Below, one piece after another: positions 19,629 through 54,956 of a DNA stretch of 54,957 bases. Position 1 is the first letter of the stretch. Every line of letters starts with the position of its first letter. A program made the position numbers and the translations under genes. This DNA comes from Candidatus Chlorohelix allophototropha (GTDB lineage Bacteria; Chloroflexota; Chloroflexia; Chloroheliales; Chloroheliaceae): NCBI RefSeq assembly GCF_030389965.1, contig NZ_CP128403.1, positions 1 to 54,957 on the forward strand, in the 5' to 3' direction. The notes beneath the pieces are model-generated. The model ran no database searches. It was not told the origin of the DNA and saw only the letters and a program-made list of their open reading frames with translations.

Positions 19629-19629
19629 T

Positions 19630-19811
19630 TATACCACGCGCCAATAAGCTGACTACCTCTTTTTGGAGCGGCGCTTCGCGCTTTCGGAATTCTCTTTACT
19701 CCTTACCCCTTTGACCTTTCCCTACCCCTAGTTCTTTGGGTTAGTTAATTTAGAGGAAAGAGCGCCAGAGACTCAGAGTTCAGAGGATTCAGAGTTCAGA
19801 GGGGCGCATAG
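19630..19811 (-). repeat. VR-downstream element, copy next to VR2
   Basis: On the minus strand, about 180 bp right after VR2 is nearly the same as 38645-38828 after VR1. Both share CTCTGAA heptamer repeats, GGCGCTCTT, AATTAACTAACCCAAAGAACT, GGTAAGGAGTAAAGAGAATT, a GCGCGAAGCGC hairpin and AGCTTATTGGC. Known DGRs need structured DNA just downstream of the VR for target recognition, and this may serve that purpose. The first 23 bases are still coding. Confidence 0.8.
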
Positions 19812-22632
19812 AGGACGACACCACCACCCGAAAACCAAAATAGTCGTAATCGTTGACAGGGTTGAAGTTGACGCGGAACACACAGGACGCAATAGCTACA
19901 TTGGAGTTGAAAGACCCGCCCCGCAGCACTCGACTATCTCCGCTACCATCCACCACCACTTCCGAAGGCTTCCCATACTTGTTCAAGCACCACTCCCACA
20001 AGTTTCCGCTCATATCCAACGCCCCGCATTTCGCCGCCCCTTGCGGGTACATGCCCACGCCCACCGCCCGGTTCAGCCCCGCCTCTGCGGTATTGGCATA
20101 GCCTTCTCGCCACTCCTCGCCCCATGGGTACTCCCGCGCTTCCGCGCCCCCCTGCGCCGCCCACTGCCATTCCCATTCCGTAGGCAGCCGTATCTGCGCG
20201 TTTTCACCTACTACTAAAAGCTTGCCCTGAGAATCGCCCACATCCGGAAATTGCCAGCCCCTATACCGCTTATTCAACCACCGCCCATATGCTACGCTCT
20301 GATACCACGAGATAGTATCGCGCGGGTTGTTCCACGCTTTGGTGCGCGGTTCATCCAGCTGGTAATCCTTGGGAAAGCCTTGCCACCACTCCCGGTTCTG
20401 GTAGCCGTCCGCCGCTTTCACAAACGCCTCATACTGGGCATAGGTTATCTGGTATTGCCCGATGTAAAACGGCGCTACCTTGAAACTCTCCTTCTCTATT
20501 TCCAGCTTCCCGCCCGGCGCTACCGCCATCCACGCTATCTCCGGCGTGCCGTCTTCTCGCACTCCTATCCCCCTCCGCGTGTCCCCGATTACACTCAATC
20601 TTCGCCCTATCTCATCCCGGCGCAGATGGCTGGTTCGCAACAGATTTGTTTCTCGCAGCAATCGCTCCTGCTCAGGCTCAATGAAATCTTCTTCGAGCGG
20701 GTTAGGTTTCCATTTCAACCGTTCCTGCATCGCATATACCATCAACAACCGCTCCTGTGACCAGCGCCACGCCTCCGGTTTGCCCTGCCACACCCAGTCT
20801 GCCGCTCCGTTCTGCACCTGCCGCCTCAGAATCAGGTCATCTTGGTATTCCTCTATCCATTTCTGCAACCGCCCCCAACTCCTGAACAAAGTCTCGTGCG
20901 CTACCTCAACCTGAGTTTCGTCCTTCACCAGCAACCGCGCCTGCGTAAAAGCCTCCACCAGCGCCAATTCCTCTGCCCCAAAACAGTCGTGCCGTACCCG
21001 CTGCCGCGTTGCCGCAAACTGTCCTTTCACTTCTTCCACTGTCACCAGTTCCCGGAATACCTGCCCCAACAACCGTGTTTTTCCCGCTTCCTCGCCCGGT
21101 AGCTTCTCGAAAACTTGCTCTGCCCTCTTCCCAATTGCCCCTTCTACCTTTCCTAACGCCTCGTAATCCGCATAGGTCAGGCGGTTGTCCCCTCGCGTCA
21201 TCGCTATCTTGTACAACTCATCCAAAAGATATGCCAACAATGCCAGCGAGCCTGCCTCACTCCCGGTGTCTCGTAAAATCAGTGAGGGTAGTCCTCGTTC
21301 AAATTCCAGAGTCGCCATTTCCGCCGGGCGTTCTATCATCTGCAACAATGCACCCGGATTTGGCGCAGACAGGTAGAAAGTACCCTTGTTCAACAGTTCA
21401 GCCAGTATGGGATTTTCGATGGCGCGATGTACAAAGTCGTGCCTTATTGTTACCAACACCCGCATGCTGGGATGCTCCGCCAATTCGCTTAGCATCTGAA
21501 TAAAAGGTTCAATCGTATCTTTCTGTGACAGCGTAAACAATTCCTCGAATTGGTCTATGAACAGCAGCACTTCCGCCCATTCCGGTGCTTTGGCGCTCTC
21601 CAGTGCGGTATTGAGCAGCTTACCTAACGTTGCCGGATTGCGGGTTATTTCTTCCACGAAGGCTTGCTTGTCCTTGGGCAAGGGCGCAAAGCTCTTGTTG
21701 ATGCCATCGAATAAAGCATCAAACGGCTCTTTTCCCGGCGTGAACTGCACCACCCGCCAGTCCTTGCTACCCGGAATAGCGTTCGTTTCCAGTCGTGGCA
21801 ATAGCCCTGCCCCCACCAGCGATGATTTCCCACTCCCAGATGCCCCCACCACCGCTACAAAGCGGCTCTCCACCACCTTCCGCACCAACGCATCGGTTTC
21901 CGCTTCTCGCCCGAAGAAGATGGGCGCATCGGTTCTCTTGAAGGAACGTAGTCCCGGAAAGGGCGAGCCTTCCCACTTCTTAGTGGCTATAATCTGCGTT
22001 TCAGGTGCAAGATTTGGGGATAGAATTGACAGTGGCTGAGCAGCCTGACGTTCCAGCAGTTTCAGCACGGTACTTTCGAGGTCGGTTTCAAATTGTTTCT
22101 TGAAGTCGGCAGGACTCTTGTATTTGTTGACCCCGCGCCGGATTTGTCCGGTAGCGGAATCATAGAACAGGTCGCTCTTGAAAAAACTCTTTACCTTCTT
22201 ATCTTGGGCGATACCTTCATCATCGTCAGAATCAAACAGCTTTTTCTCGGTGCGGCGATAGATGAGTGGGTAGGTCTGGGGATTGTTCAGCGCGTTCAGC
22301 AGTTCGTAATGAGTACCGGAAAGATAATCTACTCCTTTATAACTAAAAGGGGTACCCATCCTCGACCACAATATCACCACCACAATGTCACATTCAGAGG
22401 GTTTGGGTAGCCCAGCGTCAATCGCTTCTTGCGGAGTCATTCTGGCATCCATCGGCACACCTGCACCCGGCTTGTCCCATGCCACCGGACGGAAACTCAG
22501 TTTTTCACGGAACACAGGGCGGTTCAGCAGCCATTCCAGCACTTCCAGCACAGCTTGTCGTTCTTCTGGCACATCGCCGGGTGAGGATACGAACACTCTG
22601 AAAAGAGGTGGTGGTGGTAACTTTTCTGGCAT
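19789..22632 (-). CDS. DUF4062 - nSTAND1 NTPase - FGE-sulfatase protein, DGR target
   Basis: A 947-residue signalling NTPase. Residues 8-100 are DUF4062 (L-F-R-V-F-V-S-S-P-G-D-V-P-E-E-R, a TIR-like fold). The nSTAND1 module opens with W-E-G-S-P-F-P-G-L-R-S-F and has Walker A G-A-S-G-S-G-K-S-S with K269, then Walker B L-L-F-I-D-Q-F-E-E-L-F. A winged helix/linker region follows, then a C-terminal FGE-sulfatase domain (about 690-947) with L-P-T-E-W-E-W-Q-W-A and D-M-S-G-N-L-W-E-W-C. Residues 903-941 are encoded by variable repeat 2. Likely a ligand-sensing, ATP-switched conflict protein. The ATG at 22632 follows GGAGAAGG. It is a tandem paralogue of the gene at 22881. Confidence 0.9.
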   Translation of the reverse strand: MPEKLPPPPLFRVFVSSPGDVPEERQAVLEVLEWLLNRPVFREKLSFRPVAWDKPGAGVPMDARMTPQEAIDAGLPKPSECDIVVVILWSRMGTPFSYKGVDYLSGTHYELLNALNNPQTYPLIYRRTEKKLFDSDDDEGIAQDKKVKSFFKSDLFYDSATGQIRRGVNKYKSPADFKKQFETDLESTVLKLLERQAAQPLSILSPNLAPETQIIATKKWEGSPFPGLRSFKRTDAPIFFGREAETDALVRKVVESRFVAVVGASGSGKSSLVGAGLLPRLETNAIPGSKDWRVVQFTPGKEPFDALFDGINKSFAPLPKDKQAFVEEITRNPATLGKLLNTALESAKAPEWAEVLLFIDQFEELFTLSQKDTIEPFIQMLSELAEHPSMRVLVTIRHDFVHRAIENPILAELLNKGTFYLSAPNPGALLQMIERPAEMATLEFERGLPSLILRDTGSEAGSLALLAYLLDELYKIAMTRGDNRLTYADYEALGKVEGAIGKRAEQVFEKLPGEEAGKTRLLGQVFRELVTVEEVKGQFAATRQRVRHDCFGAEELALVEAFTQARLLVKDETQVEVAHETLFRSWGRLQKWIEEYQDDLILRRQVQNGAADWVWQGKPEAWRWSQERLLMVYAMQERLKWKPNPLEEDFIEPEQERLLRETNLLRTSHLRRDEIGRRLSVIGDTRRGIGVREDGTPEIAWMAVAPGGKLEIEKESFKVAPFYIGQYQITYAQYEAFVKAADGYQNREWWQGFPKDYQLDEPRTKAWNNPRDTISWYQSVAYGRWLNKRYRGWQFPDVGDSQGKLLVVGENAQIRLPTEWEWQWAAQGGAEAREYPWGEEWREGYANTAEAGLNRAVGVGMYPQGAAKCGALDMSGNLWEWCLNKYGKPSEVVVDGSGDSRVLRGGSFNSNVAIASCVFRVNFNPVNDYDYFGFRVVVSSSMRPSEL
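19812..19926 (-). repeat. DGR variable repeat 2 (VR2)
   Basis: 115 bp, gap-free against the template at 38873-38987. Of 21 differences, 15 fall on template adenines. The frame gives G-G-S-F-N-S-N-V-A-I-A-S-C-V-F-R and then V-N-F-N-P-V-N-D-Y-D-Y-F-G-F-R. The first 21 bases are identical to the template. Confidence 0.88.
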
Positions 22633-22678
22633 CAACCTTCTCCAATGTAAAGTTTAGTGGTAACGCAACTGCGGTTTA

Positions 22679-22790: not shown

Positions 22791-22931
22791 ACTAGCTCAC
22801 AACATACTTTACATATATCTTCACCAGCGTTTGCCGAAAATAGCATGTTTTTGAGGCTAATAAAATTGTTTTTAGCTCAGTTATTCGGCAAATAGTACTG
22901 AAGGAATGTGTAAAGCATCATATGAGCTAGT
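22791..22931. mobile_element. 141-bp MITE inserted at the 3' boundary of VR3
   Basis: Ends: ACTAGCTCACAACATACTTT at 22791 and the reverse complement ACTAGCTCATATGATGCTTT at 22931, imperfect inverted repeats that extend inward about 50 bp through TTTGCCGAA / TTCGGCAAA. ACACAACA occurs just outside both ends (22779-22786 and 22935-22942), a possible target duplication. The insertion replaces the end of the FGE gene with 16 codons from the element. Confidence 0.75.
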
Positions 22932-25775
22932 TTCACACAACACCACCCGAAAACCGAAACCGCTGAGACCGCTGTCCGCGCCGCTGCTACCGCGGTACAC
23001 ACAGGACGCAAGGGCAAGAGTGCTGCCGAAAGAGCCACCTCGCACCACTCGAGAGTCGTCACTATCGTCCACCGCCACTTCCTCCGGCTTCTGGTACTTG
23101 TTCAAGCACCACTCGCGCAAGTTCCCGCTCATATCTAACGCCCCGCATTTCGCCGCTCCCTGCGGATACATTCCCACTGCCGTTACTCGGTTCAAGCCCG
23201 CTCCCTCGGTATTAGCGTAACCCTCTTGCCACCCACCCCACGGGTATTTGCGTTCTTCCTCGCCACCTTGCGCTGCCCACTGCCACTCCCACTCGGTCGG
23301 CAGCCGTATCTGCGCGTTTCCTCCCACCACTAAAGGCTTGCTCCCACCGCCCGGTTGTGCCAATTCCAGACCGCGCAGACGACTATTCACCCAGCGCGTA
23401 AACGCCACGCTCTGATACCACGAAATAGTATCGCGTGGGTAGTTCGTCAAGCGGGTACTTTGGTTGCGTAACTCTTGAGGCTGGTATTTCTTCGGAAAGC
23501 CCTGCCACCACTCCGGGTTCTGATATCCGCCCGGTGCTTGTACGAAAGCCCTGTACTGAGCATAGGTTACTTGGTATTGAGCAATATAGAAAGGTTCTAC
23601 CTTGAAACTTTCTTTTTTGTATTCTATTTTCACTTCCCCACCCGGCGCAACGGGCAGCCACACTATAGCGGGTGTGCCATCTTCCCGCACACCCACTCCC
23701 TGCCGCGTGTCGCCTATAACCCCCAACCGCCGCCCAATCTCATCTCGGCGGTCGTGTGTGGTAGTCAGCTTGTCTTTTTCCCGCAAAAGTCGCGCCTGTT
23801 CCGGCTCGATGAAGGCAAGCTCGGTTGCTTCCGGGGTCCACTCCAACCGTTTCTGCATCGCATACACTGGCTCTAGCCGTTCGTTCAGCCACAACCACGA
23901 GTCGGGTTTGCCCCGCCTTGCCCACTCCGCCGCTCCGTTCTGCACCTGCCGCCGCAGTAGCAAATCATCCCGATAATCCTCTATCCATTTTTTCAACTGC
24001 TCCCAGCTTCGGAACAACTCTTCGTGCGCTACTTCCACCTGCGCTTTGTCCATTACCAGCAATCGTGCTTTGGTAAATGCCTCTACCAGCGCCATTTCCT
24101 CTGCCCCAAAACGGTCATACCCGGCGCGTTGGCGGGTGGCAGTGCCGCGCTCATCCACCTCCACCAGTTCCCGGAAGACCTGACCCAGCAACTGCTTTTT
24201 GGCTTCTTCCTGGCCCGGCAACTTCTCGAAAGTCTGCTCCGCTCGCCTGCCGATTGCGCCCTTTACTCCACCCAGCGCGTTGTAATCCGCATAAGTCAGG
24301 CAACGGTCGTGTCGGGTGTCTGCAACCTTATACAGTTCGTCCAGCAGGTACGCCAGCAACGCCAACGAACCCGCATCGCTGCCCATATCATGCAATATAT
24401 CGGCGCGTAGTCCGGGCGCAAATTCCAGCGCGGCTATTTCCGCCGGACGCTCAATCATCAGAGACAAAGCAGCATGGGTGGGCGCAGAGAGATAAAATGT
24501 ACCCTGATTGAGTAACTCCGCCAGCAGGGGGTTTTCAACGGCGCGATGCACAAAGTCATGGCGTATTGTAACCACCACCCGTAAGCGAGGCTGCTCAGCC
24601 AAGGCGCTTAACATCCGGGCAAAGGGTTCCACCGAATCTTTCTGTGTCGGAGCAAACAGTTCCTCGAACTGGTCAATGAACAGCAATATCTCCGCCCATT
24701 CCGGCTTATCCGCCAGCACCCGTAGCAACTGCTTTACAGCTTCCTGTGGCGATTGCACTAACTTCTGCGCCAACGGGTGAGGCTCTTCGTCCAACAGCGG
24801 GGCAAGCTTCACCGCCAGCGCCAGAAAGGGGTCATTGCCCAGCTCTCCGGGTGTAAAGCGCAACCCGTTCCAACCCTTGCCCTGCTCATAATCGGGCAGC
24901 AACCAGTCCTTACTTCCGGTATCGGCATCACTGATAGCGTTCGCGGCTAAGCGAGGCAACAAGCCTGCTCCCACCAACGATGATTTGCCGCTGCCCGATG
25001 CGCCCACCACTGCCACGAAGCGGCTCTCTTTTACCCGCTTGACCAGTGCATCGGTTTCCGTCTCACGTCCGAAGAAGATGGGGGTATCGGCTCGCCGGAA
25101 AGCGCGTAAGCCGGGAAAGGGCGAACCTTCCCACTTTTTAGTGGTGATGACAGGCTCATTCGGCTTTATAACAGGCGCAACCGGACGCTCAGGCGGACGC
25201 TCCAACAAGCGTTTTACGATGTCTTCTAGGTCGGTCTCAAATTCTTTTTTGAACTTAGCAGGGCTGGCGTATTTTTTCACGCTGCGCCGAATTTGTCTGA
25301 TGGCGGGATTTTTGAACAATTCACTGTCGAAGAAGTTTTGTACCTTCTTGTATTGCGCTATGCCTTCATCATCGTCAGCCTCAAATAGCTTTTTCTCGTC
25401 ACGGCGGTAGATTAGTGTAAAGGTCTGGGGGTTGCTTAGGGCATCTAGCAGTTCGTAATGAGTGCCGGAGAGGTAATCCACCCCATCGTTATGCTTATAA
25501 GGCGTTCCCATTCGCGACCACAGAATTACCACCACAATGTCGCATTCAGAGGGTTTGGGTAGCCCGGCGTTAATCGCTTCCTGTGGAGACATATTGGCAG
25601 GCATAGCCGTACCAGCTCCTGGCTTGTCCCATGCCACCACTCGAAAGTTCACCTTTTCACGTAAAAGGGGACGGTTGGGCAGACCCTCCACTACTTCCAG
25701 TACAGCCTGTCGTTCTTCCGGCACATCTCCGGGTGAGGATACAAATACTCTGAAAAGAGGTGGGTTTTCTGGCAT
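22881..25775 (-). CDS. DUF4062 - nSTAND1 NTPase - FGE-sulfatase protein, paralogue with MITE-derived tail
   Basis: A 964-residue paralogue of the protein at 19789 with the same order: DUF4062 (5-105), nSTAND1 with Walker A G-A-S-G-S-G-K-S-S (K264) and L-L-F-I-D-Q-F-E-E-L-F, linker, then FGE-sulfatase (about 700-947). Variable repeat 3 encodes residues 911-947. The last 17 residues are E then T-S-S-Y-D-A-L-H-I-P-S-V-L-F-A-E, read from the MITE. The ATG at 25775 is preferred over 25781 because GGAGA lies 7 bases before it. The promoter region is duplicated together with the gene, so the pair arose by tandem duplication of the whole unit. Confidence 0.9.
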   Translation of the reverse strand: MPENPPLFRVFVSSPGDVPEERQAVLEVVEGLPNRPLLREKVNFRVVAWDKPGAGTAMPANMSPQEAINAGLPKPSECDIVVVILWSRMGTPYKHNDGVDYLSGTHYELLDALSNPQTFTLIYRRDEKKLFEADDDEGIAQYKKVQNFFDSELFKNPAIRQIRRSVKKYASPAKFKKEFETDLEDIVKRLLERPPERPVAPVIKPNEPVITTKKWEGSPFPGLRAFRRADTPIFFGRETETDALVKRVKESRFVAVVGASGSGKSSLVGAGLLPRLAANAISDADTGSKDWLLPDYEQGKGWNGLRFTPGELGNDPFLALAVKLAPLLDEEPHPLAQKLVQSPQEAVKQLLRVLADKPEWAEILLFIDQFEELFAPTQKDSVEPFARMLSALAEQPRLRVVVTIRHDFVHRAVENPLLAELLNQGTFYLSAPTHAALSLMIERPAEIAALEFAPGLRADILHDMGSDAGSLALLAYLLDELYKVADTRHDRCLTYADYNALGGVKGAIGRRAEQTFEKLPGQEEAKKQLLGQVFRELVEVDERGTATRQRAGYDRFGAEEMALVEAFTKARLLVMDKAQVEVAHEELFRSWEQLKKWIEDYRDDLLLRRQVQNGAAEWARRGKPDSWLWLNERLEPVYAMQKRLEWTPEATELAFIEPEQARLLREKDKLTTTHDRRDEIGRRLGVIGDTRQGVGVREDGTPAIVWLPVAPGGEVKIEYKKESFKVEPFYIAQYQVTYAQYRAFVQAPGGYQNPEWWQGFPKKYQPQELRNQSTRLTNYPRDTISWYQSVAFTRWVNSRLRGLELAQPGGGSKPLVVGGNAQIRLPTEWEWQWAAQGGEEERKYPWGGWQEGYANTEGAGLNRVTAVGMYPQGAAKCGALDMSGNLREWCLNKYQKPEEVAVDDSDDSRVVRGGSFGSTLALASCVYRGSSGADSGLSGFGFRVVLCETSSYDALHIPSVLFAE
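22931..23045 (-). repeat. DGR variable repeat 3 (VR3), degenerate
   Basis: Gap-free alignment to the template, with 23 changes at template adenines but also about 14 at other bases plus a lost end (template TCC reads GAA, then the MITE starts). It gives G-G-S-F-G-S-T-L-A-L-A-S-C-V-Y-R. The excess of non-adenine changes suggests it has not been rewritten for a long time. Confidence 0.75.
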
Positions 25776-25821
25776 TAACATTCTCCAGCATGAAGTTTAG
25801 CTGTAACGCAACTGCGGTTTA

Positions 25822-35499: not shown

Positions 35500-38400
35500 A
35501 TGCCAACCCTTTTCATCTCATACAAACGGGGAACAACCGTAGTCGCGCCCTTGATGGAGAAGTTGAAAGAAACTGGCTACCGCCTGTGGTTCGACCGGGA
35601 GGACATTCATCTGGGCGACCCAAGCTGGAAGGCTAGAATTGACGCAGGATTGGAGCAATGCGAAGGGGTAATTCTGTGTATCTCTCCGGCAGCGTGTCAG
35701 TCCGAGCCTATAAGGTACGAAGTGTGCAAGGCATTGGAATTTAAGAAGCCTATATTCCCAATAATCTTGGAGAAAGTGGAGAGCGCCAGCGCCGCAATAG
35801 CGGATTTGGGACTACCGGGGGAACAGCACTTAGAAGATTTCACGGATGTGACGCGCTGGCAGGAAAATCTGGAGAAGCTGCGGAAGGGTCTGGAAGCGCA
35901 GGGCTTGCGGGTAACACGGCACGACCGTCGTAAGGAGCGCAATACACAGGAATACGCCCTGCACCAGCGCTACCTGAAAAAGCTGGCAGAGCGGGTAGGG
36001 CTGCTGAACTTGGCGCACGTAAACGAGGCAGAGAAGCGTGGCATCGAACTGGAGAAAGTGTACGTGGACTCGCCCACAGCTTTGAGTATCAGCCTAGAGG
36101 TGAAGGATTGGCGGGTGATTGACTGGTGGCTCTCGCGAAGTGACCAGCCTGCACGCGAGTTGCCGGGTGAGGACAAAGCGCCGAAGCGCACCAGAGTGGA
36201 GGAAATGGGCTACGAACGCTCTCCCTTTGAGGTTCTAATCGGGGGAGTGGATGAAGAGATAGCACGCTATCGGGAAGAAAACCCTCATGCAAAACCTGAT
36301 GAGAAATATTCTTGGAATAATCCTTGGAACAACGGGGTCAAAGAAAACCAGACCCATTTGCACCTGACGCATTTAGCGGCAGGGTGTGACCGGTTGGTAA
36401 TCTTGGGAGCGCCGGGCAGCGGGAAAAGCACCTTCGTGAAGTATCTGGCATTGTGCTTGGCAGGGGCGGGGATTGAGGGCTGGAATCGGGCTGCCAATCT
36501 GAACTCGCTAGAGAACTGGACACACGGGGCATTAACGCCGGTGTACGTTGAACTGCGCCGCTTTGTGGCATCAACCTACTTTCCCTCGAAGATAAGCGAA
36601 CCGGCAACCGCCCAACACCTATGGAAATACATCGAAGGGGAGCTATTGGGCGAGGGATTGGAAACCTATGCCTCTGAGCTTGAATATGACTTGGAACAAG
36701 GACACGCCCTGCTAATACTGGACGGGCTGGACGAAGTACCCTACCCGGAAGGCAAACTCAAAGAACGGCAGACGCAAATAATCAACTTGGCGCAGAGTTT
36801 GCACACTCGCTTTGCAGGCAGCCGGGTAATCGTCGCCAGCCGCCCTTATGCCTATCAGGGTTGGAGCTTGCCCGACTATGAGGCGGTGACAATAAGCGAA
36901 TTTGAAGAAGAACACCGGATAGAATTAGCCAGCCGCCTATATCGAGCAATGGGCTTGAGTGAGGAAGAAGCGCAGGCAAAGGCGGAGGCGCTGAACGAGC
37001 AGCTAGAAGAAATAGATGATGAGTTGAAAGACCGCCCCTTGTTCGTGACTTTGATGGCAACCTTGTATCTGAAGGGTGGAGAAGACGGGTTGCCAAGTCG
37101 AAAGGGGGCATTGTACCGGGAGAGCATCCTGCTGCTGTTGGAACGGTGGGGCAAGAGCAAACCGGGTTCACCATCACTGGTGGAGATACTGGGGGATAAA
37201 AGCGTAGCGGACTTATACGGGCGATTGGCAGCCTTGGCATATGCAGTGCAGGGGAGTAGCGAAGGAAGGGAACAAGCGGCAGAGATAGATGAAAGCTTGT
37301 TGTACAAACATCTCAAACCATTGGGACGAGAGGTAGCGGCGGAACTAATCCCATATTTGTGCGAAAACGCAGGGGTGCTGGTAGCGCCGGGACAGCGAGG
37401 AGAAGAAGAAATCTTTCACTATGCCCACCGAAGCTTTCAAGAGTATCTAGCGGCGGTACATCTGGTGAAGCTATGTCGGGACAGCGATAGCTTCAAGCCG
37501 GTGCAGGCACAGCTATTGGAAAAGCCGGAAACGTGGCGAGTAGTGTGCTGTTTTGTGGGGGATGTGCTGGCGGATACGAAGAAGAAAAGTGAGATTTGGT
37601 TACTACTGGCAGATTTGTTGGAAGAAGAAGAAATACCTGAAAAAAGGGAAGACCTGCGCTGGTGGCTAATATGGCTGGCAGCAACGATAGCGCAGGAGCA
37701 GGAAATCTGTGGGCTGGAAAAAGCCAAACGCAGCAATGACCGAAGCACCCTAAAAAAGATGGTGGAATGGCTGAAAGCTTTGCTGGGAACGGTACAGGCG
37801 TTGGGAGCGGTGGAACGAGCGGAGTGCGGACGGGCATTGGGCTTGTTGGGAGACCTGCGCAAAGGGGTGGGGACGAAGCCGTATAAATTGGCAGGACGGG
37901 AGGTAGAACTGCCAGAACTAGAATGGTGCGACATAGGAGCGTCGGAAGGTGGGAAGTTTGTGATGGGTTCAGATGACTGGGAAGATAACCCGCGCCGGGA
38001 AATGGAGTTGGGGTACAGCTACCGAATGACGAAGTACCTAATCACATACGGGCAGTATCAGACATTTGCGGAGAGTGGAGAATACGAGCAGGCGGAATGG
38101 TGGGAGGGTTTCCCAGAGGAATATCAGCCGCAGAAGCTAGACCAGGACTATATGAAAGAGAACAACCGACCGCGAGACTATGTAAGTTGGTATCAGTCGG
38201 TGGCGTTTACGCGATGGTTGACGGTGAAATACCGAGCAGCGGGAGAGATAGGGGTAAACGAAGAAATACGGCTGCCAACGGAGGCAGAATGGGAGTATGC
38301 GGCAAGGGGAGTTGACGAGCGGAAGTACCCCTATGGGAACGAGTTTGATGGGACGAAGGGAAATACAGATGAAACGGGGATAGGGGCAACGAGCGCGGTG

Positions 38401-38667
38401 GGGAGCTTCCCGGATGGGGCATCGCCATTTGGGGTGCTGGATATGAGTGGGAACGTGTGGGAGTGGTGCTTGAATAAGTACAAAGAGCCGGAGGAAGTGG
38501 GGGTGGACGAGAGCGGGGACAATCGAGTGCTGCGGGGCGGTTCTTGCCTCGACGATGGAGCTCGTGCGTCCTGTGTGTTCCGCAACTACGACTACCCTTA
38601 CGGCGATGACTACTTTATTGGTTTTCGGTTGGTGGTGTGTTCCGCTATGCGCCACTCTGAACTCTGA
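35500..38667 (+). CDS. TIR - NACHT NTPase - FGE-sulfatase protein, DGR target
   Basis: A 1055-residue immune-type sensor. Residues 1-130 are a TIR domain (T-L-F-I-S-Y-K-R, L-W-F-D-R-E-D, C-I-S-P-A-A, with E74 in R-Y-E-V-C at the NADase glutamate position). The NACHT-type NTPase has Walker A G-A-P-G-S-G-K-S-T (K309) and Walker B L-L-I-L-D-G-L-D-E-V (D408), then S-R-P-Y-A, and H-R-S-F-Q-E-Y-L-A-A, typical of NACHT proteins. A helical region follows, then FGE-sulfatase (about 800-1055) with L-P-T-E-A-E-W-E-Y-A and D-M-S-G-N-V-W-E-W-C. Residues 1011-1049 are variable repeat 1. The expected mode is ligand binding by the variable FGE face, NTP-driven assembly, then TIR cleavage of NAD+ (inference from family). 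Confidence 0.9.
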   Translation: MPTLFISYKRGTTVVAPLMEKLKETGYRLWFDREDIHLGDPSWKARIDAGLEQCEGVILCISPAACQSEPIRYEVCKALEFKKPIFPIILEKVESASAAIADLGLPGEQHLEDFTDVTRWQENLEKLRKGLEAQGLRVTRHDRRKERNTQEYALHQRYLKKLAERVGLLNLAHVNEAEKRGIELEKVYVDSPTALSISLEVKDWRVIDWWLSRSDQPARELPGEDKAPKRTRVEEMGYERSPFEVLIGGVDEEIARYREENPHAKPDEKYSWNNPWNNGVKENQTHLHLTHLAAGCDRLVILGAPGSGKSTFVKYLALCLAGAGIEGWNRAANLNSLENWTHGALTPVYVELRRFVASTYFPSKISEPATAQHLWKYIEGELLGEGLETYASELEYDLEQGHALLILDGLDEVPYPEGKLKERQTQIINLAQSLHTRFAGSRVIVASRPYAYQGWSLPDYEAVTISEFEEEHRIELASRLYRAMGLSEEEAQAKAEALNEQLEEIDDELKDRPLFVTLMATLYLKGGEDGLPSRKGALYRESILLLLERWGKSKPGSPSLVEILGDKSVADLYGRLAALAYAVQGSSEGREQAAEIDESLLYKHLKPLGREVAAELIPYLCENAGVLVAPGQRGEEEIFHYAHRSFQEYLAAVHLVKLCRDSDSFKPVQAQLLEKPETWRVVCCFVGDVLADTKKKSEIWLLLADLLEEEEIPEKREDLRWWLIWLAATIAQEQEICGLEKAKRSNDRSTLKKMVEWLKALLGTVQALGAVERAECGRALGLLGDLRKGVGTKPYKLAGREVELPELEWCDIGASEGGKFVMGSDDWEDNPRREMELGYSYRMTKYLITYGQYQTFAESGEYEQAEWWEGFPEEYQPQKLDQDYMKENNRPRDYVSWYQSVAFTRWLTVKYRAAGEIGVNEEIRLPTEAEWEYAARGVDERKYPYGNEFDGTKGNTDETGIGATSAVGSFPDGASPFGVLDMSGNVWEWCLNKYKEPEEVGVDESGDNRVLRGGSCLDDGARASCVFRNYDYPYGDDYFIGFRLVVCSAMRHSEL
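38530..38644 (+). repeat. DGR variable repeat 1 (VR1)
   Basis: 115 bp without gaps against the template 229 bases downstream. 22 differences: 18 at template adenines (to G, T or C) and 4 elsewhere. Asn codons of the template become Leu, Asp, Arg, Tyr, Gly and Phe. The last 16 bases, TTGGTGGTGTGTTCCG, are identical and mark the initiation end. Closest VR to the template. Confidence 0.92.
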
Positions 38668-38828
38668 ATTCTCTGAACTCTGAGCCTCTGGCGCTCTTTT
38701 CTCTAAATTAACTAACCCAAAGAACTGGGGAAAGGGTAAAGTCAAGGGGGTAAGGAGTAAAGAGAATTCCGAAAGCGCGAAGCGCCGCCCGAAAAAGGGG
38801 TAGTCAGCTTATTGGCTCGTGATATAAT
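38645..38828 (+). repeat. VR-downstream element, copy next to VR1
   Basis: About 184 bp shared with the region after VR2 (19630-19811, minus). Contains four CTCTGAA-type heptamers, GGCGCTCTT, a GCGCGAAGCGC mini-hairpin, and ends at TATAAT. Only the first 23 bases are coding. Confidence 0.8.
38823..38828 (+). promoter_or_regulatory. -10 box TATAAT before the template repeat
   Basis: A perfect TATAAT 45 bases before the template, followed by hairpin CCCGGT-CAGGCT-ACCGGG (38849-38866). It could drive the noncoding template RNA; the -35 region is not convincing. Confidence 0.4.
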
Positions 38829-38872
38829 GGGGTTGCTGGGTTTATTAGCCCGGTCAGGCTACCGGGAAGGTT

Positions 38873-38987
38873 CTGCGGGGCGGGTCTTTCAACAACAATG
38901 AAGCTAATGCGTCCTGTGCGTACCGCAACAACAACAACCCTAACAACGATAACAACAATATTGGGTTTCGGTTGGTGGTGTGTTCCG
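38873..38987 (+). repeat. DGR template repeat (TR)
   Basis: Reads, in the frame of the FGE domains, G-G-S-F-N-N-N-E-A-N-A-S-C-A-Y-R, then N-N-N-N-P-N-N-D-N-N-N, then I-G-F-R-L-V-V. It has 15 AAC/AAT codons, with no start codon and no gene of its own. AAY codons at variable positions are the standard template design of DGRs, since adenine changes there reach many residues but never a stop. No RT or Avd gene follows: 38988-39241 is noncoding. Confidence 0.93.
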
Positions 38988-39241
38988 ATGACCTGCCTAC
39001 CCTTCAGAGGGCGCAACCTTCAGGGGTTGAGCTTGCTTCCAGAAATGTCGTGCGATTACGGTTTCACGTCCGAGGAGAAGGCGGCAGGATAGCGCCGGTG
39101 GGTCTGGTCTGCGCGTGCAAACGCCAGGCACATATCTAATAACGGGCGCAGCCTGGATTCGCTCCCGCTGGGCCTTTACTCTTTCTCAAGCCTTGGAAGG
39201 TTATAAAAGCAGACAGGCTCCATGCGCGCTAAGGAGTGGTG
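38988..39241. other. Noncoding stretch after the template repeat
   Basis: 254 bases where a DGR would usually carry its RT gene or template-RNA spacer. No RT motif is present. It includes the direct repeat 39174-39206 and the RBS of the DUF433 gene. It may be the spacer part of the template RNA. Confidence 0.5.
39174..39206. repeat. Direct repeat flanking the DUF433/DUF5615 module, copy 1
   Basis: CTTTACTCTTTCTCAAGCCT then TGGAAGGTT; repeated at 39831-39863 with a few changes. Copy 2 includes the stop codon of the SLOG-SLATT gene, so copy 1 looks like a duplicate of that gene's end. Confidence 0.65.
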
Positions 39242-39475
39242 ATGAGTTTATTGCTAGAGCGGATTACAATTAATCCTGAGATTAATCACGGACAACCCTG
39301 TATTCGTGGGCTGCGTTATCCGGTGGAATTATTGCTGGAATTGCTGAGTTCCGGGATGAGTTACGAAGAAATCCTGTCAGATTACCCAGACCTTGAACGG
39401 GAAGATATACTCGCCGCGCTGGAATTTGCCACGCACCTCAGTCGCACCAAACGCATTTTTACCGACATCTCATGA
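39242..39475 (+). CDS. DUF433 antitoxin-type protein
   Basis: A 77-residue protein of the DUF433 family: I-T-I-N-P-E-I-N-H-G-Q-P-C-I-R-G, then L-L-E-L-L-S-S-G-M-S-Y-E-E-I-L-S-D-Y-P-D-L-E-R-E-D-I, the standard helix-turn-helix-like layout. It pairs with the DUF5615 protein whose start overlaps its stop (ATGA). The ATG at 39242 is chosen from AAGGAG five bases upstream; an in-frame GTG lies six bases earlier. Confidence 0.9.
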   Translation: MSLLLERITINPEINHGQPCIRGLRYPVELLLELLSSGMSYEEILSDYPDLEREDILAALEFATHLSRTKRIFTDIS

Positions 39476-39825
39476 ATTTTCTGGTTGATGCTCATCTACC
39501 GCGCCGAGTGGCGTACTGGCTTAAAGCGGCAGGGCACCAAGCAATCCACACCCTTGATTTGCCTGAAGGCAATCGCACTACCGACGCTGCGTTAAACAGC
39601 CTCTCGCTAGAGAACCAGGCAATCCTTGTGACCAAAGACTCAGACTTTGTAAACTCATTCATTCTACAGCGTCAGCCCTATAAGCTGCTGCTCATTTCTA
39701 CCGGAAATGTGACTAATAACGTGTTGGAAAGCCTAATTCAGCACAATTTGGCTTTATTGGTCAATCTTTTTGAGAGTCATAATTTCCTAGAACTGACCAG
39801 AGATGGGCTGGTTTTACACTCCTGA
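39472..39825 (+). CDS. DUF5615 PIN-like protein (toxin partner)
   Basis: A 117-residue PIN-like protein: M-N-F-L-V-D-A-H-L-P-R-R-V-A, an acidic D6 at the first active-site position, then T-D-A-A-L-N and V-T-K-D-S-D-F carrying the central acidic residues (D62, D64). PIN domains are metal-dependent ribonucleases; DUF433-DUF5615 pairs are common toxin-antitoxin-like modules in Cyanobacteria and Chloroflexota. Coupled to the gene upstream by a 4-base overlap. Confidence 0.9.
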   Translation: MNFLVDAHLPRRVAYWLKAAGHQAIHTLDLPEGNRTTDAALNSLSLENQAILVTKDSDFVNSFILQRQPYKLLLISTGNVTNNVLESLIQHNLALLVNLFESHNFLELTRDGLVLHS

Positions 39826-39830
39826 AATCT

Positions 39831-39863
39831 CTTTGCTACTCTTTCTCAGGCATTGGAAGGTTC
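39831..39863. repeat. Direct repeat flanking the DUF433/DUF5615 module, copy 2
   Basis: CTTTGCTACTCTTTCTCAGGC then ATTGGAAGGTT; see 39174-39206. Confidence 0.65.
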
Positions 39864-41723
39864 TGAACCAACCGTTTCAGGCTTGCCACCCTGAGCGGAA
39901 GAACCTTTGCCTCTCTGTTGCCCGTTTGCGCTGGAGTTACCCGTTTTGGCAGCATCGGAGTTATCCTCCCCCTTCTCGGCTTGGTGCTTCTGCAAATCAG
40001 ATAGCGCAGTTTGCATCTGTTGCACCCACCCAATCTGTTCGGACTGAAGCGTGTTCTCAGTAATATCCACCAGTTTGTCAATATTAACCTGTTCCGCCTG
40101 CTGGTCTGGGGTTAAAGCCACCCACCAATCCCGGATATTCTCCAAACTCTGAGCAGCCCGGTTATACTGCTTGAGGGTATTAGTGACCTGCATATATTCC
40201 AAATACGTAGTGATAGCGCCCACCAAGGCGGTTATCACCGGAATAAGCAACTCCTTACTGATTGCCGCTATGACGGTACTGGTTCCACTAAATAAGAAAA
40301 TAGCCCATTGCAACCTGAAGCGCAGCCTGTCCAGTCCCTTAGCCTTCTTGCGGTAATAAATGCGCTGGTTCTCCAGCCTGAACTCTAGGTATTCTTCTGG
40401 CGTGAGGAAGCTAACCCCATCATCGGTGGCGCTGGCTTTCTCCTCCGGCTTTTTCTTCTTCACCTTCGTCTTATCCGGTTCTTGCAAGGAGGAAGTGGTA
40501 ACCTCGCTCTCCAGCCACTTATGACTAATAGCCTCCAGCATATTTGAGAGATACATCTCAGGAGTAGTGCCGTCCTTCTTTGCTCTCTTGAGACTATAAG
40601 AACCGGAGCGAGTGCGGTAGCGGAACATCTCGCGTTTGACCGCATCGGTAGCCGCTCTGACCAATACCCACTTGGAACCCATATTGAAGAAATTTGCCCC
40701 GGCAATTAATACCGTCACAATCGCAGGCACTCCCAATACCAGAAAATACAAAGTATCGGTAACCCAACTATCCCACTTGACCTGTTTGGCGAAAGTCTGC
40801 AACACTGCAAAGCCTGCCCCAAACACCCCCAATATCAGGATAGCCAATTGCAATAGCTGAAACCTGTTCTTGAAGCGCTCGGCGTTATGGCTGTAGAGCT
40901 TGTAACGTTCTTTGGCTTTTTGGATAATCTTCTCTCTGGAAGAGTTTAACTGGAGCATAATTTGCCGTCCGAACTCTTCCGGTGTTTCGGTTAGGTTGAA
41001 GAAATGCAAATTACCGTCTGCCACAATCTCCGCTAGCATAGGGTCTTCCACGAAATCCGGTTCGGACTCGACCAGCTCGACCAGCTTGTCCGCTAAATCG
41101 CCGCTCCCCTTCACCACAATAATCGGATAGTCGCGCCGGGTGCAAGCCAGAATCTCTCGTTTGGCTATATCATCTCCGCCCACCAAAATTGCCAGCGGCT
41201 GCGCCTTATCGGATAAAGTCGCTACCAGATTAATCCGGCTGGCACTCTCATCCCCAGCATTAGCCCCTTTTACCAGAACGAAATGGGAATGGTTGGGTTC
41301 GAGCGGCCATTTTCCGTCTTGTGGGGCAGCAATAGGCGGGAGCAGCGCCCTGCCTTCAGGCGCGATACCGAGCATAGGGATTTTGACATTCCGGTCGGCG
41401 AAACTTCTGCCCAACAAATCAACCAGCGTGGAAGCAATACCTTCATCCACCAGCGTAACGGACTTACCGGCTGAGAGTTGTGCTACTACACGGGCAAACC
41501 CTCGACTGAATAACTGAAACAGGCGCGATTCCAATTGGGGGATAGCCAGGTCGGCATTTCCGAGAACAAGAATAACGTTTGAAGGTGGGTTCAGACTCAA
41601 AGCTTCCAGAACCTTGCCCGGTTCATCACCGGGGGTCATTGACAGCAGGAGCGCTTTATTACCGTTGGGAAAAGCAATCGTCTGTGCCGTGCCGGCAGGT
41701 GGCGGAGTCTGAGTATCACTCAT
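39846..41723 (-). CDS. SLOG (TRPM/LSDAT-type) protein with two SLATT/DUF4231 membrane modules
   Basis: A 625-residue protein. Residues about 15-240 form a Rossmann-like SLOG domain of the LSDAT type (V-I-L-V-L-G-N-A-D, S-V-T-L-V-D-E-G-I-A-S-T-L, P-I-I-V-V-K-G-S-G-D-L-A), which senses or processes nucleotides. Two membrane modules follow, helices at about 300-320 and 333-355 and at about 490-530, each with the R-Y-x-x-R / Y-Y-R-K-K-A-linked layout of SLATT/DUF4231. SLOG-SLATT proteins are predicted conflict systems in which a nucleotide signal opens a membrane pore. ATG at 41723 is preferred over 41798: GAGG lies 9 bases upstream. Confidence 0.82.
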   Translation of the reverse strand: MSDTQTPPPAGTAQTIAFPNGNKALLLSMTPGDEPGKVLEALSLNPPSNVILVLGNADLAIPQLESRLFQLFSRGFARVVAQLSAGKSVTLVDEGIASTLVDLLGRSFADRNVKIPMLGIAPEGRALLPPIAAPQDGKWPLEPNHSHFVLVKGANAGDESASRINLVATLSDKAQPLAILVGGDDIAKREILACTRRDYPIIVVKGSGDLADKLVELVESEPDFVEDPMLAEIVADGNLHFFNLTETPEEFGRQIMLQLNSSREKIIQKAKERYKLYSHNAERFKNRFQLLQLAILILGVFGAGFAVLQTFAKQVKWDSWVTDTLYFLVLGVPAIVTVLIAGANFFNMGSKWVLVRAATDAVKREMFRYRTRSGSYSLKRAKKDGTTPEMYLSNMLEAISHKWLESEVTTSSLQEPDKTKVKKKKPEEKASATDDGVSFLTPEEYLEFRLENQRIYYRKKAKGLDRLRFRLQWAIFLFSGTSTVIAAISKELLIPVITALVGAITTYLEYMQVTNTLKQYNRAAQSLENIRDWWVALTPDQQAEQVNIDKLVDITENTLQSEQIGWVQQMQTALSDLQKHQAEKGEDNSDAAKTGNSSANGQQRGKGSSAQGGKPETVGSEPSNA

Positions 41724-41996
41724 GGGTTTAGCCTCGCTCTGCAACAAATTGATGCTTTGAAGCGTTGTATGCTGTTTACGCCGAGTAATGGCTGGCATAC
41801 AAGCAAAAGTTTAATCACCATACTGCTCGACTTTAATATTATGCAAGCGATTCTAGTTTATTGCAACCCGTCAGTTGTACCAAATAAGGTTTTGTGGGAG
41901 TAGAAACCTTTACTATACCTCAAGCCATTTATTGACATATAGCGAAGAATACCATAATATGCCGATAGATACCATTTTAGTATGGAGGCACATATT

Positions 41997-51921: not shown

Positions 51922-51960
51922 ATGAAACTAAACAATTGCACAGGAATCCAGCCGCGATGA
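51922..51960 (+). CDS. Possible 12-codon leader peptide before the Res gene
   Basis: ATG at 51922 reads M-K-L-N-N-C-T-G-I-Q-P-R and stops at TGA 51958-51960, which overlaps the Res start as ATGA. GAAAG precedes it. The exact overlap would allow coupled translation; could be chance. Confidence 0.25.
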   Translation: MKLNNCTGIQPR

Positions 51961-54956
51961 AGCAAGTTGTAATCGAGAATCCTATCCTCAATTCCCCTTT
52001 CTCCGAGCCGAAGCGCCACTTTAGGTTCGACGAACGCGGTATCACCGACGAAATTTTAGAAAAGCGCCGCCCCAGTTCCTACTTCATCCCTATCCCCAAG
52101 CCCAAAGGTAAGGCTAAAGGACAGACCTCTATGGATTACATGGAGGGTTGGATTGAAGAGCGCGAAAAGAAGAACGACAATATCAATCGCTTGCGAGAGC
52201 GGGTGAAGATATGGCGACAGGGGAACTACACCGGCGTTACGGCTACCACTCGCCGCTTGCTGGAATACTGGACTAACCCAGACCGCGAGAAAAAACTCTT
52301 TTTCTGCCAGATTGAAGCGCTGGAGACTGCCATCTATATCGCCGAAGTTGCCACTAAATACGGTGATAGTTGGGTGGTTGAGCAGTGGCTTAAAGAGCAG
52401 AACGCCGTAGCTAACCCCAAGCTGTTCCGTCTCGCTTTCAAAATGGCTACCGGTAGCGGAAAGACGGTGGTGATGGGAATGCTCATTAGCTGGCAAGCGC
52501 TTAATAAGCTCGCTAACCCACAGGATAGCCGATTCTCTGACACCTTCCTGATTGTCACGCCTGGTATCACCATCAAAGACCGCTTGCGGGTATTGCTACC
52601 CAACGATCCGCAGAACTACTACCGACAACGCGATTTACTCCCCCCTGACCTGATGGAGCAGTTGCACAAAGCCAAGTTGGTAATCACCAACTTCCACTCC
52701 TTCAAGCTGAGAGAACACACCGATGCTGGAGCGCTCACCAAGAGCATTCTCAAGCAGGGGCAGGCGAGCAGCCCCTTCACCGAAACACCCGATCAGATGG
52801 TGCGAAGGGTTTGCCGGGAGCTTGGCACCAAAAAGAATGTCATCGTTATCAACGACGAGGCACACCACTGTTACCGCCGTAAGCCGGATGATGGGGGCGA
52901 AGCTCTAAAGGGCGATGAGAGAAAAGAGGCAGAGAAACGCGAAGAGGAAGCCCGTATCTGGATTTCAGGGCTGGAAGCTGTGAAAGAGAAGCTGGGCGTG
53001 AAGATGGTGTACGACCTCTCCGCTACCCCCTTCTTTCTGAAAGGTTCGGGCTACCCGGAGGGCACACTCTTTGGTTGGGTGGTTTCGGACTTCTCGCTGA
53101 TTGATGCAATCGAATGCGGGATTGTGAAAGTGCCGAGGGTGCCGGTAGCGGACGACTCAATGACCGGTGAGCAGCCGACCTATCGTGACCTCTGGCTACG
53201 CATCCGAGAGGGGCTGCCCAAGAAGGGGCGTGGCACTCGCGATGAGAGCGAAGGGGCTGACCCGATTCTGCCGCTGGAACTGGAAGGGGCGCTGCAAAGC
53301 CTCTATACCAACTACGAAAAGTATTACGCCTTGTGGAAAGCAGCGGAAGGGGCTGACCAGACTCCCCCGGTGATGATTGTGGTCTGCAATAACACTAACG
53401 TTTCCAAACTGGTGTACGACAAAATAGCCGGTTACGAGAAAACCCTACCCAACGGGCAGAAGGCGCTGGTGCCGGGCAAGTACGCGATTTTCAGCAATGT
53501 TTCGGACGAACGCTGGTTGGCACGCCCCAACACCATCCTGATTGATAGTGAGCAACTGGAGTCGGGTGAGGCGATGAGCGCCGACTTCAAGAAGATTGCC
53601 AGTCGTGAGATTGAGGAGTTCAAGGAAGATTATCGCCAGCGCTTCCCAGGACGCAATGCCGATGAGTTGACCGATGAAGATTTGCTGCGGGAAGTGATGA
53701 ATACGGTGGGTAAGCCCGGCAAGTTGGGCGAGCAGGTCAAATGTGTGATATCGGTTTCGATGCTGACAGAGGGATGGGATGCCAACACTGTAACCCATAT
53801 TCTGGGAGTGCGGGCTTTCGGGACGCAACTTTTGTGTGAGCAGGTGGTGGGGCGAGGCTTGCGCCGCCGCAGTTACCAGACTAATGCGGAAGGCTTTTTC
53901 GAGCCGGAATACGCCGAGGTTTACGGTGTGCCATTCTCCTTTATTCCCTGTGCCGGAACCGAGCAGGTTGTCCAGAGTGGCAAAACTGTCACTCGTGTGC
54001 GGGCGTTAGAGAATCGGCTAGAGTGCGAAATCTCTTTCCCGCGACTGACCGGCTACCGATACGCCATAGCCACCGAAAAGCTGAAATACAAGTTCAGTGA
54101 GGACTCGGCGATGGCGCTTTCCACTGCCGATGTACCCACCAAAACCGAGATGCAGTCCATTGTGGGCGAAAGCGAAGTTCACAATCTCGATCCTCTACTA
54201 AAACGTCGGGAGCAAGAGGTTGTCTTTAAGTTAGCTCACGAAGTATTGAGACACTATTTTCCGGCAGATAAAGAGGAAAGCAACTTATCGGTTAAATTCT
54301 GGCTGTTTCCGCAACTGCTGGAAATAACCCGCCACTGGCTGAAAGAATGTGTCCATTTCAAAGCCAATACCTTCCCTCAGCTACTTTTGCTGGATCAGCA
54401 TTCTTACAATGCCCGCGACAAAATCTATCAGGCAATTGTGGGGGCTGAGGAGGGCGAGAAGCAGCTTCAGCCGGTGTTGCGCCCTTACGATACGGTTAGC
54501 TCTACCCGCTACGTGGATTTTGACACCACTCGCCCGGTTTACGCCACCCACCCCCAGAAGTGCCACATCTCGCATGTGGTCTGCGACACCCAAAGCTGGG
54601 AGCAGAAATTGGCGCAGGTGCTGGAAGATATGCCGGAGGTGGTGTGCTACGTCAAGAATCAGGGTTTGAACTTCACTATTCCCTATACCATTGACGGGGT
54701 AGAGCGGCAATATCTACCCGATTTCGTGGTGCACTATAACGACCGGAATAACCCACAGGATTTGCTGAACCTGATACTGGAAGTATCCGGGGAACCGCGT
54801 AAGGATAAAGCCGCCAAAGTAGCGACTGCTCGTAACCTGTGGGTTCCGGCAGTAAATAATCACGGTGGCTATGGACGCTGGGCTTTTATCCAGATTACCG
54901 ACCCTTGGGATGCTGAGAATACCATTCGATCAGTGTTTAAGTTAGAGAAGGAATAA
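51957..54956 (+). CDS. Res-like superfamily 2 helicase / restriction endonuclease
   Basis: A 999-residue DNA translocase and predicted nuclease, partner of the Mod-like methyltransferase. Walker A A-T-G-S-G-K-T (164-170), DEAH box D300-E-A-H, motif III L-S-A-T-P-F, and motif VI E-Q-V-V-G-R-G-L-R-R. The C-terminal region has Y-L-P-D922-F and L-I-L-E942-V-S, the position of a PD-(D/E)XK site, with Ser where Lys is common, then W-V-P-A-V-N-N-H-G-G-Y-G-R-W-A-F, a hallmark of this family. ATG at 51957 is preferred to a TTG at 51936 (AGGA upstream). On a circular molecule the next gene is the DUF4209 gene at position 1, one base later. Confidence 0.88.
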   Translation: MKQVVIENPILNSPFSEPKRHFRFDERGITDEILEKRRPSSYFIPIPKPKGKAKGQTSMDYMEGWIEEREKKNDNINRLRERVKIWRQGNYTGVTATTRRLLEYWTNPDREKKLFFCQIEALETAIYIAEVATKYGDSWVVEQWLKEQNAVANPKLFRLAFKMATGSGKTVVMGMLISWQALNKLANPQDSRFSDTFLIVTPGITIKDRLRVLLPNDPQNYYRQRDLLPPDLMEQLHKAKLVITNFHSFKLREHTDAGALTKSILKQGQASSPFTETPDQMVRRVCRELGTKKNVIVINDEAHHCYRRKPDDGGEALKGDERKEAEKREEEARIWISGLEAVKEKLGVKMVYDLSATPFFLKGSGYPEGTLFGWVVSDFSLIDAIECGIVKVPRVPVADDSMTGEQPTYRDLWLRIREGLPKKGRGTRDESEGADPILPLELEGALQSLYTNYEKYYALWKAAEGADQTPPVMIVVCNNTNVSKLVYDKIAGYEKTLPNGQKALVPGKYAIFSNVSDERWLARPNTILIDSEQLESGEAMSADFKKIASREIEEFKEDYRQRFPGRNADELTDEDLLREVMNTVGKPGKLGEQVKCVISVSMLTEGWDANTVTHILGVRAFGTQLLCEQVVGRGLRRRSYQTNAEGFFEPEYAEVYGVPFSFIPCAGTEQVVQSGKTVTRVRALENRLECEISFPRLTGYRYAIATEKLKYKFSEDSAMALSTADVPTKTEMQSIVGESEVHNLDPLLKRREQEVVFKLAHEVLRHYFPADKEESNLSVKFWLFPQLLEITRHWLKECVHFKANTFPQLLLLDQHSYNARDKIYQAIVGAEEGEKQLQPVLRPYDTVSSTRYVDFDTTRPVYATHPQKCHISHVVCDTQSWEQKLAQVLEDMPEVVCYVKNQGLNFTIPYTIDGVERQYLPDFVVHYNDRNNPQDLLNLILEVSGEPRKDKAAKVATARNLWVPAVNNHGGYGRWAFIQITDPWDAENTIRSVFKLEKE

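Follow-up and report, generated by a model that had tools for sequence, protein, structure and literature searches.

The window analysed here, i.e., the whole stretch of 54,957 bp, carries the template RNA and three targets of a diversity-generating retroelement (DGR), a system that deliberately mutates chosen genes. This is a real DGR, which very probably has been without its enzyme since a fairly recent loss of the reverse transcriptase (RT). The explanation that we favor, and hold with good confidence, is that the window represents the plasmid part of a dispersed DGR, that RT-Avd acted in trans and was lost to IS insertion/deletion, and that the repertoire of targets is now frozen. The window is contig C5 in an assembly of five contigs with 6,086,194 bases. 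As published, the genome of Ca. Chlorohelix allophototropha L227-S17 is closed and comprises two chromosomes, a 375-kb chromid, and plasmids of 241 kb and 55 kb, all five replicons being circular (PMC10972752). The window corresponds to a plasmid of this genome, which bears out the earlier view that it is a complete replicon.

Table 1. Features of the DGR on the plasmid (window coordinates).
Feature	Position	Strand	Basis or remark
Target gene 1, 1055 aa: TIR - NACHT - C-terminal FGE-sulfatase (C-type-lectin-like) holding the VR	35500..38667	+	Pfam TIR_2, NACHT, FGE-sulfatase
VR of target 1, 18/31 template adenines changed	38527..38644	+	
Post-VR segment ACTCTGAACTCTGA...TCTCTGAACTCTGAGCCTCTGGCGCTC	38653..38697	+	
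Promoter-like site of the template RNA, TAGTCA-16-TATAAT, TG before second hexamer	38801..38828	+	consensus match only
Conserved leader of the template RNA, with a predicted long-range pairing to the RNA core beyond TR	38835..38869	+	
Template repeat (TR), non-coding, 13 AAY codons	38870..38987	+	
Structured RNA 3' of TR (spacer-like), five helices	38999..39145	+	covariation
Terminal hairpin with GCCTGGATTCGCTCCC motif	39148..39177	+	kept in relatives, absent from C2 copy
Target gene 2, 948 aa: DUF4062 - nSTAND1 - FGE	19789..22635	-	Pfam
VR of target 2, 15/31 template adenines changed	19815..19929	-	
Target gene 3, 966 aa: DUF4062 - nSTAND1 - FGE	22881..25781	-	Pfam
VR of target 3, of the older C30/G71 template type, 23/31 template adenines changed	22935..23044	-	

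A preliminary description of the window had aligned nucleotides 38873-38987 with 38530-38644 over 115 bp without gaps, and an exact recheck agreed with its count of 22 differences, 18 of which are at template adenines (Fisher p = 5e-9 for the adenine bias over 117 bp). The 15 adenine changes among 21 in a second plasmid copy were likewise reproduced, with the gene end at 19789. For the third copy, in the gene ending at 22881, the 23 adenine changes stood, while the total is 41 over 117 bp instead of about 37 (p = 2e-7), and a recount of the AAY codons in the template gave 13 and not 15. A search of the genome with the template revealed a second template on chromosome 2 (C2:643695-643825, 92% to the plasmid template) and 14 VRs in 13 genes on four replicons (C1, C2, C3, and C5), 11 of them on C1, C2, and C3 in addition to the three on the plasmid. 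Within a 70-bp core, the pooled comparison of 13 VRs with the plasmid TR, from which the poorly aligned copy at C2:2086656 was omitted, showed changes in 236 of 403 template-adenine cells (59%) versus 64 of 507 others (13%), and the mismatch rates at template C, G, and T were alike (12-14% each). The adenine excess persisted inside the first codon positions (119/182 changed at A versus 17/130 at non-A) and the second codon positions (113/208 versus 14/91), and therefore codon position does not explain it. The pooled p value of 4e-50 is descriptive only, because the VRs share ancestry; for single VRs the p values range from 7e-4 to 6e-10, the poorly aligned copy excepted. The near-repeat of TR and VR with substitutions at template adenines is thus that of a DGR, and together with the RT-linked homologues of the template RNA described below, this pattern strongly supports the original interpretation as DGR template and targets.

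All 13 VR genes have FGE-sulfatase domain matches and end shortly past the VR, and all VR-bearing reading frames are open. The fusion partners of the FGE domain are TIR-NACHT, DUF4062-nSTAND1, nSTAND1, TIR, protein kinase, or TPR, and one gene has an FGE match only. As in other DGRs, the VRs are thus located at gene 3' ends within a C-type-lectin/FGE-like domain, with the exception of one internal VR. The latter is found in a TIR gene at C2:2086.6-2089.3 kb, which contains two FGE domains with a VR in each, one internal and the other at the 3' end. At the 3' end, where a DGR may carry a distinct homing-initiation sequence, most VRs have GGTTTTCGG where both TRs have GGGTTTCGG. The post-VR segment ACTCTGAACTCTGA...TCTCTGAACTCTGAGCCTCTGGCGCTC recurs behind most VRs of the genome and behind those of Anaerolineae CFX9, and it is a possible cis signal for homing. 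The fusions with TIR, NACHT, nSTAND1, kinase, and TPR probably act as sensors in conflict or defence. STAND/TIR proteins with FGE-type domains have reportedly been proposed as diversified sensors in the diversifying NTP-dependent conflict systems of multicellular bacteria. These systems are a class of targets and not of retroelements, and a sensor function would be assigned here by likeness. It has been proposed that targets of this kind serve as antigen sensors of anti-phage conflict systems (PMC10907252), and they may do so here as well.

The template units of the plasmid and of chromosome 2 resemble each other over a stretch that begins about 70 bp ahead of the template and reaches some 150 nt past it, in surroundings that are otherwise unrelated. 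In the five-helix RNA 3' of the template, 97.8% of the cells are paired and 12 pairs have compensatory changes, as judged from six sequences with the structure drawn from the same alignment; none of 500 shuffles was as good, and sliding the partners abolished the pairing. Folding of the single sequence was not above shuffles (z = -0.15), and therefore covariation was needed to recognize the structure. The pairing predicted between the leader and the RNA core around the template is invariant, a TATA-like box is present at the corresponding place in homologous template RNA units, and the terminal hairpin is the probable 3' end of the template RNA. Both template RNAs of the genome retain the fold. 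By analogy, the structured RNA has a putative role in recruiting RT-Avd.

Among 400 genomes of the phylum, the RNA model R1 has exactly two copies in this genome and one in genome G372, with strict filters under which weak matches may be lost. In G372, in Ca. Chloroheliaceae L227-5C (G086), and in CFX9 (G159) the homologous RNA accompanies a DGR RT and a divergent, overlapping Avd gene, which ties the RNA of the window to DGRs; a covarying fold that flanks the TR is thus common to RT-linked units. A scan of Rfam with the template RNA yielded no known family, and a weak match to RNase P (E = 2.3) was dismissed as chance. Scans with the TR and the RNA core found nothing in viral contigs and one weak Nostoc match in plasmids; an exact 40-nt RNA pattern found nothing in GTDB genomes, and a shorter core found four loci there, in collections of which some may omit records near this genome. 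The idea that three Anaerolineae loci might be stand-alone template units without RT was dropped, because the CFX9 contig also carries an RT and an Avd gene and because the contigs of the other two loci stop within the target gene. The absence of a DGR RT match in G158 and G160, which have the template RNA, is not conclusive, because their contigs stop in the target gene. Template RNA units in the Anaerolineae bins MAG-262 and MAG-264 were seen in the same situation, with no DGR RT match and contigs that stop in the target gene.

The preliminary description had found no RT or Avd gene on the plasmid, and this was confirmed. Its suggestion that the plasmid relies on an RT of the chromosome finds no support in this genome, because neither a DGR RT nor Avd was found on the five replicons searched. 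Searches of these replicons with RVT_1, BPP-1 Brt, and a profile of seven DGR RT sequences did not find an intact DGR RT and matched just group II maturases, one short remnant next to a CRISPR-like repeat, and a DGR RT stub of 18 codons. The best score of the DGR RT profile was 78 bits, for a group II maturase, versus 470-650 bits for full-length DGR RTs of the class. Two models for Avd (PF22296 and profile A3) found none in the genome, and PF22296 has matches, some of them weak, in 12 of 13 other genomes compared. The four intact group II RT genes of the genome have maturase and HNH domains and the motif QG-x-x-x-SP, not IGNLTSQ, which shows that the resident RTs are group II and not DGR RTs. 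The degenerate RT remnant at C1:992.3-993.2 kb was rejected as a candidate DGR fossil; it adjoins a CRISPR-like repeat (CACCTAATCCTCGGAAG...), the flanking translation is Cas6-like by eye, and this suggests a dead Cas6-RT(-Cas1) gene.

The RT stub (GFVVYPDYRRLKRRNTVN; C2:639898-639951, minus strand, 54 nt) lies 3.7 kb from the chromosomal template. Sixteen of its 18 residues are identical to the RT of CFX9, compared with a best identity of 10/18 for shuffled sequence of the region, and 4 of its codons are identical, 12 synonymous, and 2 nonsynonymous. The stub stops exactly at the start of an IS256-type terminus, which is repeated (7/35 mismatches) at a second Mutator-family copy nearby. In CFX9, whose gene order is read like that of the other relatives from draft contigs, the TR-RNA is followed by the target, Avd, and the RT. 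The RT and the TR are divergently transcribed there, and the stub and the chromosomal TR have the same mutual orientation. As a genome-wide profile match the stub is weak (E = 0.1), and therefore codon pattern and position carry the case. The region adjoining the stub (C2:638.7-639.9 kb) contains nested Mutator/IS256-type and other transposase remnants. Upstream of the target gene beside the plasmid TR no RT or Avd remnant was found, and thus we infer which locus served the plasmid. The earlier notion of a fossil system is apt for the enzyme, the RT stub being cut at an IS terminus near the second template, but not otherwise, as the RNA folds are kept and the frames are open. Lacking RT and Avd, the system falls outside the complete DGRs and is classed as an enzyme-less DGR, by loss.

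Two core positions that are not template adenines, 30 and 71, divide the VRs into three groups, C30/G71 (n = 6), C30/T71 (n = 4), and G30/T71 (n = 3), the last of which is the state of both extant templates; G30/G71 is not found among the VRs, and the poorly aligned copy has A30/G71. These groups appear to form three nested template epochs, with the two freshest VRs on the plasmid, and their nesting indicates that retrohoming probably went on as the template evolved. The C30/G71 group is probably the oldest, because the Anaerolineae templates have C30 and CCG, although the polarity has few outgroups behind it and the template of G086, unlike those of the Anaerolineae, has G30, which runs counter to this order. 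Among the members of the youngest group are the plasmid VRs at 19815-19929 and 38527-38644, which differ from the plasmid TR at a single non-adenine core position, index 49, where they have the base of the chromosomal TR; every non-adenine base of their core is thus present in one of the two extant templates. The lack of foreign bases at these sites argues for activity that is recent on an evolutionary scale, and since there are 78 such sites in all, the age of these VRs is bounded loosely.

These results are consistent with the following course of events. The self-contained template RNA (promoter-like site, leader, TR, and structured 3' RNA) would have been copied by a DGR RT-Avd complex that miscopied adenines, and the cDNA would have been written into sensor genes with FGE/C-type-lectin-like domains on four replicons, in place of their 3' end. 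An RT-Avd pair, probably that encoded at the chromosome 2 locus or else a similar one, would have served the plasmid in trans, until IS insertion and deletion destroyed it after the youngest homing events. The strain would thus no longer diversify its sensors and would keep a frozen repertoire.

The loss of the enzyme has its counterpoints, as an RT may persist in a small part of the population or in an element missing from the assembly, and the near-zero change at non-adenine sites in two plasmid VRs could mean that homing is still going on. The system might thus still be active in trans, with RT-Avd supplied by a lost or rare plasmid or prophage, by an RT-plus subpopulation, or by an RT-plus host, such as L227-5C, through which the plasmid passes. 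This sister species comes from the same lake and possesses RT and Avd as well as a homologous template RNA, and for Thiohalocapsa PB-PSB1 both trans action and RT-intact variants beside transposon-broken ones have been described (PMC10907252). However, the template RNA of L227-5C is just 74% identical, the pristine core of the two VRs bounds their age loosely, and the genome in which RT and Avd were not found has been published as closed (PMC10972752), so that we regard ongoing activity as unlikely. Also unlikely is the idea that the plasmid is an RT-free DGR "half-element", with a self-contained template RNA and targets that are diversified only on meeting a compatible RT-Avd in a different cell or element. 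If true, template and enzyme would be modules that can exist apart, and cells lacking the enzyme would inherit frozen sensors until re-supplied.

That one of the four intact group II RTs has taken over the copying of the template RNA is very improbable in view of their domains and motif, the lack of a detectable Avd in the genome, and a mutation pattern that shows no alteration between template epochs. FGE-domain genes do form families in this genome, and a family under positive selection, with the template as a truncated gene copy, would dispense with a retroelement altogether. Yet template adenines are changed in 59% of the cells and each of the three other bases in 12-14%, with the excess seen even within one codon position, and the non-coding copy is conserved elsewhere beside RT and Avd and with the covarying RNA, which leaves this explanation with next to no probability.

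A dispersed DGR that has lost its enzyme can be compared with several known systems. The complete DGRs of Chloroflexota (Ca. Chloroheliaceae L227-5C, G086:C36; Anaerolineae CFX9; G372) have a TR, a leader, and a covarying RNA homologous to those of the window, and the targets are also alike, FGE-type in G086 and a TIR-STAND protein with a VR tail in CFX9; in contrast to the genome of the window, they have an RT and a divergent, overlapping Avd gene. Thiohalocapsa PB-PSB1 shares STAND/NACHT/TIR targets with FGE/CLec VRs, degenerate loci without machinery, a transposon-broken RT, and a proposed action in trans, but it has kept a complete locus per DGR class (PMC10907252), whereas no RT or Avd was found here. 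Cyanobacterial DGRs with remote variable proteins likewise have many dispersed CLec targets at gene 3' ends, and some are on plasmids, but the RT is present (PMC7517822). The DGR of Bordetella phage BPP-1 (mtd/avd/TR/brt) shows the same adenine-specific transfer from TR to VR and a structured RNA flanking the 3' side of the TR (spacer; PMC12875486), a likeness by position; unlike the dispersed system, it is a compact single-target cassette with RT and Avd.

Dispersed targets, trans action, and transposon-broken RT genes are therefore already known (PMC10907252, PMC7517822). A literature search found no report of a closed genome that combines numerous VRs and intact template RNAs with the lack of any DGR RT. 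The DGR surveys compared take the RT as their starting point and thus overlook genomes that lack the enzyme but retain intact template RNAs and many targets. The closed genome displays a probable loss event, the RT stub at an IS terminus, together with the surviving parts and a layered VR record of template versions. It makes testable what becomes of diversified immune-like sensors once diversification stops, and whether it resumes when RT and Avd are supplied again. The covarying RNA beside the TR, which matched no Rfam family, offers a new model with which to search Chloroflexota for DGR template RNAs.

Several other features of the plasmid were observed. Defence-like genes are located at 1-4657, 39846-41798, and 51936-54956; they include a PDC-S39 candidate, a type III methyltransferase, a SLOG/SLATT protein, and a gene with weak matches to type III restriction enzymes. 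Directly 3' of the template RNA (39243-39825) is a small gene pair that by eye resembles a DUF433 antitoxin and a DUF5615 PIN-like toxin. About 80 bp preceding the template RNA (38748-38830, including the promoter-like site) recur at 19629-19720 after target gene 2, with no template following; perhaps a template has been lost at that site, or else the segment spreads independently.
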